Positions 50,017 to 52,895 of a stretch of DNA of 64,000 nucleotides are shown here, one piece after another (position 1 is the first letter of the stretch; every line of letters begins with the position of its first letter). The notes below the pieces were generated by a model. That model saw nothing but the letters and a program-made list of their open reading frames with translations. It was not told where the DNA came from and ran no database searches. Where the stretch lies: assembly GCF_011390835.1 (NCBI RefSeq), contig NZ_JAABRQ010000003.1, positions 62,001-126,000 of the forward strand, read 5' to 3'. Origin of the DNA: Hydrogenophaga sp. GTDB taxonomy: Bacteria > Pseudomonadota > Gammaproteobacteria > Burkholderiales > Burkholderiaceae_C. The position numbers and the translations under genes were made by a program.

Positions 50017-51150
50017 TCAGCGGGTGCGGCTGCGTGTGGTTTTCACGGCCTGCGACAGGATTGCGAGCGCCTGTTCGGAATCGCTCCACCCCAGGCAGGC
50101 GTCGGTGATGCTCTGTCCGTAGGCGAGTTTCTTCACGCTGTCCTTGCCGGGCGTGAACTTCTGCGCACCGGCTTCGATGTGGCTTTCGATCATCAGACCG
50201 AACACGCTGCGCGAGCCACCTTCGATCTGCGCCGCGATGTCGCGCGCCACGTCGAGCTGCTTTTCGTGCTGCTTGCTGCTGTTCGCGTGGCTGCAATCCA
50301 CCATCAGGCGCGGCATGAGCTTGGCGGCCTCAAGGTCCTTCACCGCTGCGGCGACGTGGGTGGCGTCGTAGTTGGGTGCCTTGCCGCCGCGCAGGATCAC
50401 GTGGCAATCGGGGTTGCCTTGCGTCTGCACCACCGCCACCTGGCCGTTTTTGTGTACCGAAAGGAAGTGATGGCCGCGTGCTGCGGCCTGAATGGCGTCG
50501 GTCGCGATCTTGATGTTGCCATCGGTGCCGTTCTTGAAGCCGATCGGTGCCGACAGACCTGAGGCCAGCTCACGGTGCACCTGGCTTTCTGTGGTGCGCG
50601 CGCCAATCGCGCCCCAGGCGATCAAGTCACCGATGTACTGAGGCGAGATCACATCCAAGAATTCACTGCCCGCCGGCAGGCCCATGCGGTTGATCTCGAT
50701 CAGCAGCTGGCGCGCAATGCGCAGGCCCTCGTCGATGCGGTAGCTCTCGTCCAGGTACGGGTCGTTGATGAGCCCCTTCCAGCCCACCGTAGTGCGCGGC
50801 TTTTCGAAATAGACGCGCATCACGATCTCCAGCGTATCGGAGTATTGCTCGCGCAGCGGCTGCAGGCGGCGCGCGTAGTCCAGAGCGGCGGCCGGGTCGT
50901 GGATCGAGCAGGGACCAATCACCACCAGCAGGCGGTCGTCTTTGCCGTGCAGGATGCGGTGGATGCGCTGGCGGGTGCGGGTGATCAGGTCCTCCACCGG
51001 CGTACCCCCGATCGGGAAAAAGCGGATCAGGTGCTCGGGAGGAGGCAGCACGGTGATGTCTTTGATGCGTTCGTCGTCGGTCTGGCTGGTCTTGTCGACA
51101 GGACGGGCATGCCAGGCATCCTGGCTGTGGGTGGTGGACTTGGCATTCAT
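50017..51150 (-). CDS. 3-deoxy-7-phosphoheptulonate synthase (class I, AroG/AroF type)
   Basis: 377-residue DAHP synthase, the first step of aromatic amino acid synthesis, joining PEP and erythrose-4-phosphate. It has the class I motifs LLVVIGPCSIHDPAAALDYA, YFEKPRTTVGWKGLINDPYL, KNGTDGNIKIATDAIQAAAR and LMVDCSHANSSK. Which aromatic end product inhibits it cannot be told. It is preceded by an attenuator-like leader (51257-51328) and terminator (51201-51234), so transcription is likely tuned by aromatic aminoacyl-tRNA supply. Confidence 0.95.
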   Translation of the reverse strand: MNAKSTTHSQDAWHARPVDKTSQTDDERIKDITVLPPPEHLIRFFPIGGTPVEDLITRTRQRIHRILHGKDDRLLVVIGPCSIHDPAAALDYARRLQPLREQYSDTLEIVMRVYFEKPRTTVGWKGLINDPYLDESYRIDEGLRIARQLLIEINRMGLPAGSEFLDVISPQYIGDLIAWGAIGARTTESQVHRELASGLSAPIGFKNGTDGNIKIATDAIQAAARGHHFLSVHKNGQVAVVQTQGNPDCHVILRGGKAPNYDATHVAAAVKDLEAAKLMPRLMVDCSHANSSKQHEKQLDVARDIAAQIEGGSRSVFGLMIESHIEAGAQKFTPGKDSVKKLAYGQSITDACLGWSDSEQALAILSQAVKTTRSRTR

Positions 51151-51200
51151 CGCGATGACTCCTGAAAACGTTCTAAGAAAATGACGGAAACCAACAGACC

Positions 51201-51234
51201 AAAAAAAACCGCCGGGTGTTGTCGCCCGGCGGTT
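51201..51234 (-). terminator. Attenuator terminator upstream of the DAHP synthase gene
   Basis: Read on the minus strand, a perfect 10-bp stem (AACCGCCGGG / CCCGGCGGTT) with an 8-base loop is followed by eight T residues. It ends 50 bases before the gene start, so it would stop transcription before the gene. Its first arm can pair instead with CCCAGGCGG inside the leader peptide (codons 15-18): eight G-C pairs with one bulged A. Confidence 0.85.
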
Positions 51235-51256
51235 TGATCGAGATTCGGTGAAGTGC

Positions 51257-51328
51257 TTACAGCCTCGCCTCTCGTCCGCCTGGGACTGAGAACCAAAAAT
51301 AAAAGGAAAAGGCGCGAGGCAAGCTCAT
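51257..51328 (-). CDS. Aromatic-rich leader peptide of the DAHP synthase attenuator
   Basis: 23-codon ORF (ATG 51328 to TAA 51257), too short for usual gene finding. Codons 7-13 read FSFYFWF: six aromatic residues of seven, covering Phe, Tyr and Trp. The stop is followed after 22 bases by the terminator stem. Stalling on the aromatic codons would free the antiterminator segment. No strong ribosome site precedes the ATG, and a TACATT -10-like hexamer lies 8 bases upstream, so a near-leaderless transcript is possible. Confidence 0.75.
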   Translation of the reverse strand: MSLPRAFSFYFWFSVPGGREARL

Positions 51329-51422
51329 GGGCAGTGAATGTAGCACAGCGGGGGTGACGGGCCGCTGACAGCGGCGAGTCACGCCGAAGCTCAGGCCTTC
51401 GGTGGAGAACTCGAGGGGCCCC

Positions 51423-52895
51423 TCAAGCGGTACCGCCGACCGTCAGCCCGTCGATGCGCAAGGTGGGCTGGCCCACGCCCACCGGCACGCTCTGGCCTTC
51501 TTTGCCGCAAGTGCCCACGCCGCTGTCGAGCTTCATGTCGTTTCCGATCATGCTCACGCGAGTGAGTGCATCGGGACCATTGCCCACCAAGGTGGCACCC
51601 TTGACCGGATACTGGATCTGCCCGTTTTCCACCCAATAGGCCTGGCTGGCGGAAAACACGAACTTGCCGCTGGTGATATCGACCTGGCCACCGCCGAAAT
51701 TGGTGGCGTACAGACCCTTCTTGATGCTGGCGACGATTTCGTCCGGGCTCTTGTCGCCTCCCAACATGTAGGTGTTGGTCATGCGCGGCATGGGCACATG
51801 AGCGTAGCTCTCGCGCCGACCGTTGCCGGTGGGCTTGACGCCCATGAGACGCGCATTCATCGAGTCCTGGATGTAGCCACGCAGGATGCCGTCTTCGATC
51901 AACACATTTTTCTGCGACGGATGGCCTTCGTCATCCACGTTGAGTGAACCGCGGCGGTCGGCAATGGTGCCGTCGTCCAGCACAGTCACGCCCTTGGCCG
52001 CCACCCGCTTGCCGATTTTTCCGGCGAACGCGCTTGAGCCTTTGCGGTTGAAGTCGCCTTCCAGGCCATGACCCACGGCTTCGTGCAACAGAATGCCTGG
52101 CCAGCCCGAGCCCAGCACCACCACCATTTCGCCTGCCGGTGCGGGGCGCGCATCGAGGTTGGTCAGCGCGTTGCTGACTGCCTCGTCCACATATGACTGG
52201 ACCAAGACTTCGTCGAAGTAATCCAAGCCAAACCGGCCACCTCCACCGGAAGAGCCCATTTCGCGACGGCCCTTCTGTTCTGCGATCACGGTGACCGAGA
52301 GGCGGATTAGCGGGCGCACATCGGCTGCCAGGGTGCCATCGGCCCGCGCCACCAGCACCACGTCGTATTCGCTCGCCAGTCCGGCCATGACCTGCACCAC
52401 ACGCGGGTCCTTGGCCTTGGCCAGTTTCTCCACCTTCTCCAGCAAGGCCACTTTAGCCGTGCTGTCCAGTGTGGCGATCGGGTCCACGCCTGGGTAAAGC
52501 GAACGCGTTTTGGCGACCTTCACCGCCGGCGCGCGCTTGACGCGACGATTCTGGCCCTGACCGGAAATGGTACGCACCGTGTGCGCGGCATCGAGCAGCG
52601 AGGCCCAGGACAGGTCATCCGAGTAAGCAAACGCCGTTTTTTCACCGCTAACCGCGCGCACGCCCACGCCCTGGTCGATGCTGAAGCTGCCGGTCTTGAC
52701 GATGCCCTCTTCCAGGCTCCAGCCCTCGCTGCGGGTGTACTGGAAATACAGGTCGGCGTCGTCCACGCCGTGCGACATGATTTCGCCCAGCGCCCGCTGC
52801 AGGTGCGCAGGGCTCAGGCCATAGGGATCCAGCAGGAGGTGTTGGGCACTGCTGAGGCGGGCGATGGTGGGTTCACGAGCAATCATGCGATCCAT
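51423..52895 (-). CDS. tldD: Metalloprotease TldD
   Basis: 490-residue TldD of the TldD/PmbA heterodimer, which degrades peptides and processes modified peptides. The zinc motif is in GILLHEAVGHGLEGDFNRKG (HExxxH). YTRSEGWSLEEGIVKTG and the C-terminal MIGNDMKLDSGVGTCGKEGQ are characteristic. The length is normal. A second ATG lies 9 bp inside (52886). TldE/PmbA is not in the window. Confidence 0.95.
   Translation of the reverse strand: MDRMIAREPTIARLSSAQHLLLDPYGLSPAHLQRALGEIMSHGVDDADLYFQYTRSEGWSLEEGIVKTGSFSIDQGVGVRAVSGEKTAFAYSDDLSWASLLDAAHTVRTISGQGQNRRVKRAPAVKVAKTRSLYPGVDPIATLDSTAKVALLEKVEKLAKAKDPRVVQVMAGLASEYDVVLVARADGTLAADVRPLIRLSVTVIAEQKGRREMGSSGGGGRFGLDYFDEVLVQSYVDEAVSNALTNLDARPAPAGEMVVVLGSGWPGILLHEAVGHGLEGDFNRKGSSAFAGKIGKRVAAKGVTVLDDGTIADRRGSLNVDDEGHPSQKNVLIEDGILRGYIQDSMNARLMGVKPTGNGRRESYAHVPMPRMTNTYMLGGDKSPDEIVASIKKGLYATNFGGGQVDITSGKFVFSASQAYWVENGQIQYPVKGATLVGNGPDALTRVSMIGNDMKLDSGVGTCGKEGQSVPVGVGQPTLRIDGLTVGGTA

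Follow-up and report, generated by a model that had tools for sequence, protein, structure and literature searches.

Organization of the DAHP synthase locus

The window, i.e., the whole 64,000-nt stretch of Hydrogenophaga sp. DNA analysed here, carries on its minus strand an aroG-type gene for a class I DAHP synthase, preceded by a short leader ORF and a terminator hairpin (Table 1). The tldD gene lies upstream on the same strand and ends at 51423, and the leader sits between tldD and the aroG-type gene. The first-pass annotation had read the downstream gene as a class I DAHP synthase, and the profile matches bear this out: TIGR00034 scored 539.7 bits and PF00793 was also matched. The AroG equivalog NF006723 scored 545.3 bits, below its cut-off of 568. 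Solved structures described as Phe-sensitive or phenylalanine-regulated scored 463 bits and those described as Tyr-sensitive or tyrosine-regulated 404 bits and less, an order that says nothing certain about the regulation of the window synthase itself. Among the best 80 of 590 relatives, the closest named one is from Hydrogenophaga, with 91% identity.

Known RNA families were also considered as the identity of the element. A gathering search of the window with the curated Rfam families (4227 models, release 15) returned tRNA only, and a search of 51150–51420 with E up to 1 gave two sRNA matches, both far below their thresholds. A known Rfam RNA was thus rejected.

Table 1. Features of the leader region and the DAHP synthase gene in the window
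Feature	Position	Strand	Basis
Extended −10 element TGCTACATT; transcription predicted to begin at or next to the leader ATG	51337–51345	−	Motif conservation
Leader ORF MSLPRAFSFYFWFSVPGGREARL*, 23 codons and TAA	51257–51328	−	Sequence; shuffles; comparable leaders in 62/80 loci
Possible segment 1, GCCTCGC, pairs with 51262–51268	51314–51320	−	MFE and centroid fold
Control codons 7–13, F S F Y F W F	51290–51310	−	Sequence; codon conservation among 92 leaders
Antiterminator 5' strand CCC-A-GGCGG, codons 15–18	51276–51284	−	Pairs with 51225–51232; GGCGG/GGTGG conservation
Inner antiterminator helix, 5' strand CGAGA, pairs with 51239–51243	51270–51274	−	Folding
GCGAGGC, partner of segment 1	51262–51268	−	Fold
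Inner antiterminator helix, 3' strand TCTCG	51239–51243	−	Folding
Terminator 5' arm AAACCGCCGGG, common to antiterminator	51225–51235	−	Terminator scan; conserved pairing
Terminator 3' arm CCCGGCGGTTT (51206–51216) and eight T (51201–51208)	51201–51216	−	Scan; folding
AGGAG, likely ribosome-binding site of aroG	51159–51163	−	Sequence
aroG-type class I DAHP synthase, 377 aa, controlled gene	50017–51150	−	Profile matches

Leader ORF, terminator and alternative helix

Direct reading of the minus strand, with the start ATG at 51328 and the TAA ending at 51257, confirms the 23-codon ORF with FSFYFWF at codons 7–13 that had been described earlier. The leader is thus a short ORF rich in codons for the products of the pathway. 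The 272-nt intergenic region was shuffled 2000 times with its dinucleotides preserved, and no shuffle gave an ORF with six aromatic codons in seven, the best having five (12 of 2000 shuffles); this aromatic-density measure was picked after the leader had been seen.

Between the leader and the gene lies an intrinsic terminator whose pairing is conserved, as described below. It was the single site found in the scan, with a stem (51235–51206) of 11 pairs, 8 G-C and 3 A-U, and a loop of 8. The perfect 10-bp stem of the first-pass annotation is therefore corrected to 11 bp, while its eight T residues and their distance from the gene stand: 50 nt separate the end of the T run from the aroG ATG (51150). 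Three of the eight T (51208–51201) pair with the A's of the stem. The terminator alone folds at −21.4 kcal/mol. Shuffled sequences hold 0.6 terminator-like sites on average, and the fold of the whole 196-nt region has an unremarkable z-score of −1.25, which was set aside as uninformative. The case for an attenuator rests on the parts taken together and on their conservation.

As had also been proposed, a segment inside the leader ORF is complementary to the first arm of the terminator. The stretch CCCAGGCGG in codons 15–18 pairs with CCGCCGGG through eight G-C pairs round one bulged A. The resulting antiterminator hairpin folds at −22.9 kcal/mol and is similar in stability to the terminator. 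The free window RNA prefers a competing 5' hairpin, with an antiterminator probability of 0.087 (mean over 90 leaders, 0.483). In the window fold, segment 1 and its partner form a candidate protecting hairpin, which would end transcription when the leader goes untranslated.

Comparable leaders in related bacteria

Relatives of the synthase were collected in one scan of genome contigs, from which the best 80 of 590 loci were taken. Among these 80 DAHP synthase loci, 62 have an aromatic leader followed by a terminator. The 18 others comprise L023, which is without upstream sequence, three Polynucleobacter rows and L055, two Cupriavidus copies, one Rhodocyclaceae, two Zoogloeaceae and one Methylophilaceae locus, three from gammaproteobacteria, one from Chitinimonas, and three labelled Planctomycetota or Verrucomicrobiota. 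The synthases of the last three (L044, L047, and L048) fall among the betaproteobacterial ones on the tree, and these loci may be mis-binned contigs or cases of transfer. In the three Polynucleobacter rows (L032, L033, and L035), tldD and the DAHP synthase gene are nearly adjacent, with neither leader nor terminator between them; the attenuator has perhaps been lost there.

Together with the window and 29 further loci found with a covariance model, the first set gave 92 leaders. Before counting, L061, a false aromatic ORF, was left out of the leader sets and L086, which is the window again, out of the second set. Phe and Tyr codons are present in all 92 leaders and Trp codons in 69; most Oxalobacteraceae rows and several others are among the 23 without Trp, and in L060 and L067 Trp occurs only behind the aromatic run. 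Where Trp is present, the last Trp is the last or last-but-one codon of the run in 56 of the 69 leaders. The order and spacing of the aromatic residues differ widely, e.g., FSFYFWF, FYFYFFW, FFTGYFYF, and FYFYFYGF. Substitutions between leader pairs number 460 at third codon positions vs. 283 and 319 at the other two; because this lean is only moderate, it adds little. Both the aromatic codons and the stem pairing, on which the first-pass annotation had staked its reading, are thus conserved in relatives.

Behind the aromatic codons, GGCGG is found in 86 and GGTGG in 4 of the 92 leaders, each complementary to CCGCC of the terminator 5' arm; neither was found in L009 and L020. The leader of the latter (positions 1335–1412 of its locus), MRTTVRYHFWHFHIQHLTGAGVANA, has decayed or been altered: three His codons interrupt its aromatic ones, and one more follows. 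Among the 60 first-set leaders having GGCGG, 28 carry the motif in frame 0, 31 in frame 2, and one in frame 1. It accordingly encodes Pro-Gly-Gly and the like in frame 0, and Leu-Ala-Asp, Ala-Ala-Gly, Lys-Ala-Val, and the like in frame 2. GGCGG is kept across changing reading frames, as would be expected if selection acted on pairing and not on the peptide.

Pairing was assessed in an alignment (A2) of 45 of the 92 leaders, hand-chosen for diversity. For the terminator, 96.5% of cells are paired and 27 cells are changed on both sides; for the antiterminator, the values are 84.0% and 19. None of 500 shuffles matched the paired-cell share, the double-changed cells or the covariation score of either helix, and sliding the helix partners lowered the pair scores strongly. 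The numbers of double-changed pairs and of pair types, the measures said to be least misled by kinship, are unexceptional: 211 and 109 of 500 shuffles were as high for the antiterminator, and 60 and 351 for the terminator, and such shuffles are not probabilities for related sequences. Because the core of both helices hardly varies, the covariation signal comes from one to three pairs at the flanks. In 11 to 20 of the 45 rows, the outer pairs of the antiterminator are not formed. The shared base beside CCGCC varies together with both of its partners, as T-A-T in 16 rows, C-G-C in 10, A-T-A in 2, and other combinations in 17.

Distribution and inheritance

Two covariance models were used, R1 from 38 sequences and R2 from the 45 diverse ones. 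Both were built from members of the groups then searched, the E-values are rough owing to a short calibration, and related leaders are not independent. With E ≤ 0.001, R1 has a match in every one of the 150 genomes sampled in the family, covering 115 of 115 genera; these are model matches, and the listed ones span the whole model. In the order, 399 genomes were sampled, and R2 has a match in 110 of them at E ≤ 1e-4. Fifty of the 110 were inspected, namely that of the window, the 29 best-scoring R1 loci, and 20 picked for family spread and weak scores; 47 were confirmed, 3 were not, and the other 60 are model matches only. All 29 best-scoring loci stand before a DAHP synthase gene with an aromatic leader, as do 17 of the 20 others, the poorest (L142) having four aromatic codons and a GTG start. 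The order total is therefore at most 107 of 399 genomes in 14 of 50 sampled families, and every one of these 14 includes a confirmed locus.

The three checked loci that are not DAHP synthase leaders (L132, L133, and L134) are all among the weaker matches. At L132 (G283:C1:274401-274553), the aroG leader model found a Leu-rich leuA leader, LLSLLLLSRL, before a 2-isopropylmalate synthase-like gene. L133 and L134 (G114:C20:48229-48373 and G235:C1:1711110-1711259) have the leaders MVTFSVVYNVYFYWYRSSGGAKGC and MITFSAVFNAYFYWYRSSRRLQGASLD, each with a terminator before a protein of about 200 residues; a Pfam search with the L134 protein gave no match. These two are perhaps an aromatic attenuator of another gene.

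Of 370 genomes searched in the class, 8 gave a match at E ≤ 0.001. Three belong to the family of the window, and one match covers the terminator part only. The four class genomes outside the order (three in f60 and one in f65) have aromatic leaders before a DAHP synthase gene, and the f60 synthases group with that of Xanthomonas bonasiae on the tree. On this tree of 112 synthases, 94 of them with the leader (L023, L055, L049, L101, and L081 being omitted), presence of the leader requires 6 label changes vs. a mean of 16.9 after shuffling, with none of 500 shuffles as low. The leader share in this sample is biased upwards because 33 rows came from leader models. Few in number, the label changes indicate that leader and gene have been inherited together, with some losses.

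Within its own genome, the aromatic codon pattern occurs exactly in the window leader and with one mismatch at one other place, which lies within a longer open frame. Besides the window leader (1e-25) and its opposite strand, R1 with E up to 10 finds a leuA leader (0.07) and a partial match (2.4). No aromatic leader was found at the two DAHP synthase paralogs of this genome, L082 and L083 (54% and 50% identity). The upstream region of L081 carries the window leader.

Promoter and predicted leaderless start

An extended −10 element adjoins the start codon, an addition to the first-pass annotation, which lacked it. The motif TGnTAnnnT stands 4–10 nt before the start in 63 of the 92 leaders and 6–8 nt before it in 61; control windows of the same loci have it in 6 of 2300 cases. 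Its spacing is 7 nt in 29 leaders, 8 nt in 22, 6 nt in 10, and 9 and 10 nt in one each. Given the box 6–8 nt before the start in 61 of 92, most such leader mRNAs are probably leaderless. In the window, transcription likely begins at or next to the AUG, judging from the position of the box. Columns of the 92 leaders show no conserved −35 or other bases upstream of the extended −10 box, and a scan of 51140–51440 that demands a −35 box found no consensus sigma-70 promoter. Burkholderia and Oxalobacteraceae rows have no box at that distance; by eye, TATAAA- or TATAGT-like boxes lie further upstream, so leaderless initiation is not universal.

The pattern TGNTACATTN{6,8}ATG occurs at three places in the 3.67-Mb genome, and the backward-read control never does. 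By names read from translations, the three are the window leader, the leuA leader, and the start of a coaBC-like gene. The leuA leader, MNRVSFSLLLGVHHGHVW* (L088, 1501–1650; G000:C65:107847-107996), contains CTA CTA CTG and a terminator-like hairpin, is followed by a gene whose translation reads as 2-isopropylmalate synthase, and has the same TGnTACATT-N7-ATG start as the window leader. The coaBC-like gene (L149, 1501–1518; G000:C66:88196-88213) begins 6 nt behind TGCTACATT; ordinary genes such as this one may use the leaderless-type start too.

Folding with a ribosome footprint

For folding, the transcript was cut at the end of the terminator 5' arm, and pairing was barred both within the ribosome footprint and in the RNA behind it. 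The antiterminator probability in the window is 0.973 to 0.974 for A-site codons 2 to 13 and 0.002 at codon 14, placing the switch at the last aromatic codon. Averaged over 90 leaders (L009 and L020, without GGCGG or GGTGG, were left out), the probability is 0.97 with the last aromatic codon in the A site, and over the following four codons it falls to 0.573, 0.206, 0.065, and then 0.000. Varying the 3' edge of the footprint from +12 to +18 shifts the switch point by about one codon; at +18, GGCGG of the window is covered (0.002) as soon as the ribosome reaches the last aromatic codon. With the edge at +15, a ribosome on the last aromatic codon ends short of GGCGG in 84 of the 90 leaders and lies too near in 6. 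In nearly all leaders GGCGG begins at least 8 nt past the last aromatic codon, L015 being the exception. As the start of GGCGG thus approximates the leading edge of the ribosome, a stall on the aromatic codons would expose it and further reading would cover it. The first-pass annotation had raised the caveat that the antiterminator segment lies inside the leader ORF, and this spacing settles the matter in favour of a switch.

The stop codon of the window leader is 16 nt behind GGCGG. When the RNA behind the ribosome was left free to pair, the antiterminator probability with a ribosome at the stop was 0.997, 0.762, and 0.0 for 5' edges at −12, −14, and −17 (means over 90 leaders, 0.535, 0.426, and 0.18), and the value at the last aromatic codon of the window dropped to 0.606–0.966. 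In these models, a ribosome at the window stop codon may therefore not reliably cover GGCGG, which is the weak point of the switch. By computation, the antiterminator is otherwise exclusive with the terminator and set by the position of the ribosome.

Comparison with known attenuators

In the trp and pheA leaders of E. coli, ribosomes stall on end-product codons and the antiterminator and terminator are mutually exclusive, as predicted for the window. Unlike the window leader, each answers to one amino acid, has its own ribosome-binding site, and has its antiterminator behind the leader, not inside it. Leaders with codons for several amino acids are already known elsewhere.

A review names the trp and pheA leaders of E. 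coli as attenuators and describes the aroR leader of the aroF (DAHP synthase) operon of Corynebacterium glutamicum as a ribosome-mediated attenuator with Phe-Tyr-Phe, affected by Phe and not by Tyr (PMC11802643; Neshat et al. 2014). By this description, aroR appears to be the closest precedent: as proposed for the window leader, it controls a DAHP synthase by ribosome-mediated attenuation through an aromatic leader peptide, but it belongs to Actinobacteria and the description there names no Trp (PMC11802643). Three other papers describe systems that share some of these features. The candidate uORFC-13-1 likewise lies upstream of a DAHP synthase gene, contains one or more Phe codons, and has a terminator beside it; in contrast, this prediction concerns aroF of Acholeplasma and environmental sequences (24 representatives), and Phe alone is named (PMC8632094). 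Attenuation of a DAHP synthase gene has also been proposed for Shewanella aroF, although, by its description, that table entry, based on an E. coli paper, involves Tyr-tRNA only (PMC2659441). The leader transcript of trpL in Sinorhizobium meliloti begins at the AUG of the leader ORF, like the predicted start in the window, whereas it concerns Trp, trpE(G), and an alphaproteobacterium, and its products also act in trans (PMC7298713).

A search of a set of PubMed Central papers found no account of this element in Burkholderiales or Xanthomonas. The suggestion that the attenuator may be new thus holds within the literature searched, with the restriction that the C. glutamicum attenuator of a DAHP synthase has already been reported (PMC11802643). 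DAHP synthase attenuators and leader transcripts starting at the AUG are each already known singly; the combination, the three-product run, and the reach across bacteria seem new.

Proposed mechanism and alternative explanations

From the leader, its codons, the terminator, the alternative helix, its spacing from the codons, and their conservation, all observed by sequence, comparison, and folding, we infer the transcription start, translation, stalling, termination, and response as follows. Driven by the extended −10 promoter, transcription would begin at the leader AUG or just beside it, and a ribosome would translate the 23-codon leader directly behind RNA polymerase. If charged tRNA-Phe, -Tyr, or -Trp were scarce, the ribosome would stall within codons 7–13; GGCGG (51276–51280) would then be free to pair with the terminator 5' arm, no terminator would form, and aroG would be transcribed. 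If all three were plentiful, the ribosome would pass codon 13 and cover GGCGG, the terminator would form, and transcription would end near 51201. Shortage of any one end product would be enough, so that the switch would work as an OR gate where the shikimate pathway begins. The conserved codons, the complementarity of leader and terminator, and the footprint folding all support the ribosome-mediated attenuation first suggested for this locus, and we regard the element as very probably a ribosome-mediated transcription attenuator of the aroG-type DAHP synthase.

Two other readings deny this role to the leader codons. The hairpin could be the terminator of tldD and the short ORF a chance reading frame: tldD, which shares the strand, ends at 51423, and its transcripts would also be stopped by the hairpin. 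Yet aromatic leaders and terminators recur together over a large order, with complementarity and steady spacing, the aromatic density was reached in no shuffle, and Polynucleobacter, where tldD and the synthase gene are nearly adjacent, lacks both leader and terminator. These observations contradict a tldD terminator as the sole explanation, and the shuffles and conservation rule out a chance ORF; we consider this reading extremely improbable. Nearly as hard to credit is an arrest of the ribosome by the nascent peptide itself, as in TnaC, which would sense free amino acids and not slow codons. The leader peptide is indeed very hydrophobic and partly conserved within families, but arrest peptides usually require fixed residues, whereas here the order and spacing of the aromatic residues vary widely and only the codon class stays.

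A more serious question is which amino acids count. The claim that all three tRNAs are sensed fits the window and the 69 leaders with a Trp codon, and not the 23 without one. The attenuator could be real and answer mainly to Phe and Tyr, its Trp codon being incidental and the leader no true three-way sensor. The universal Phe and Tyr codons vs. the patchy Trp codons, their absence from most Oxalobacteraceae rows, and the Trp codons behind the run in L060 and L067 speak for this, and in the C. glutamicum aroR leader, with its Phe-Tyr-Phe, limitation of Phe acted and that of Tyr did not, according to the review (PMC11802643). Against it, the usual place of the last Trp at or next to the end of the run is well suited to a stall that sets the switch, and folding makes no difference between window codons 7 to 13. 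We hold a response mainly to Phe and Tyr to be rather unlikely, and judge that all three amino acids probably act in the window. A product of the attenuator could in addition act in trans, with either the peptide or the roughly 128-nt terminated RNA serving as a regulator like rnTrpL/peTrpL of S. meliloti, whose RNA also starts at its own AUG and whose products are reported to act in trans (PMC7298713). The variability between families favours a role in cis, and an action in trans appears improbable.

Biological significance

On balance, we incline slightly towards a joint reading of the attenuator described above. A leaderless switch answering to Phe, Tyr, or Trp would be the ancestral control of shikimate entry in much of Burkholderiales and in Xanthomonadaceae-like bacteria, inherited with the gene, so that one 130-nt RNA would do what regulator proteins share in E. 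coli. In these bacteria, attenuators would commonly be built with an extended −10 box next to the leader AUG, a design that the leuA leader of the window genome also has. If true, one RNA switch would govern the commitment of carbon to aromatic amino acids across a large bacterial order. The leader offers an easy experimental case for whether one leader senses three tRNAs, and bears on how a leaderless leader keeps the ribosome coupled to the polymerase. Such leaders can be annotated in the sampled genomes, and they may provide a handle for engineering these bacteria towards aromatic products.
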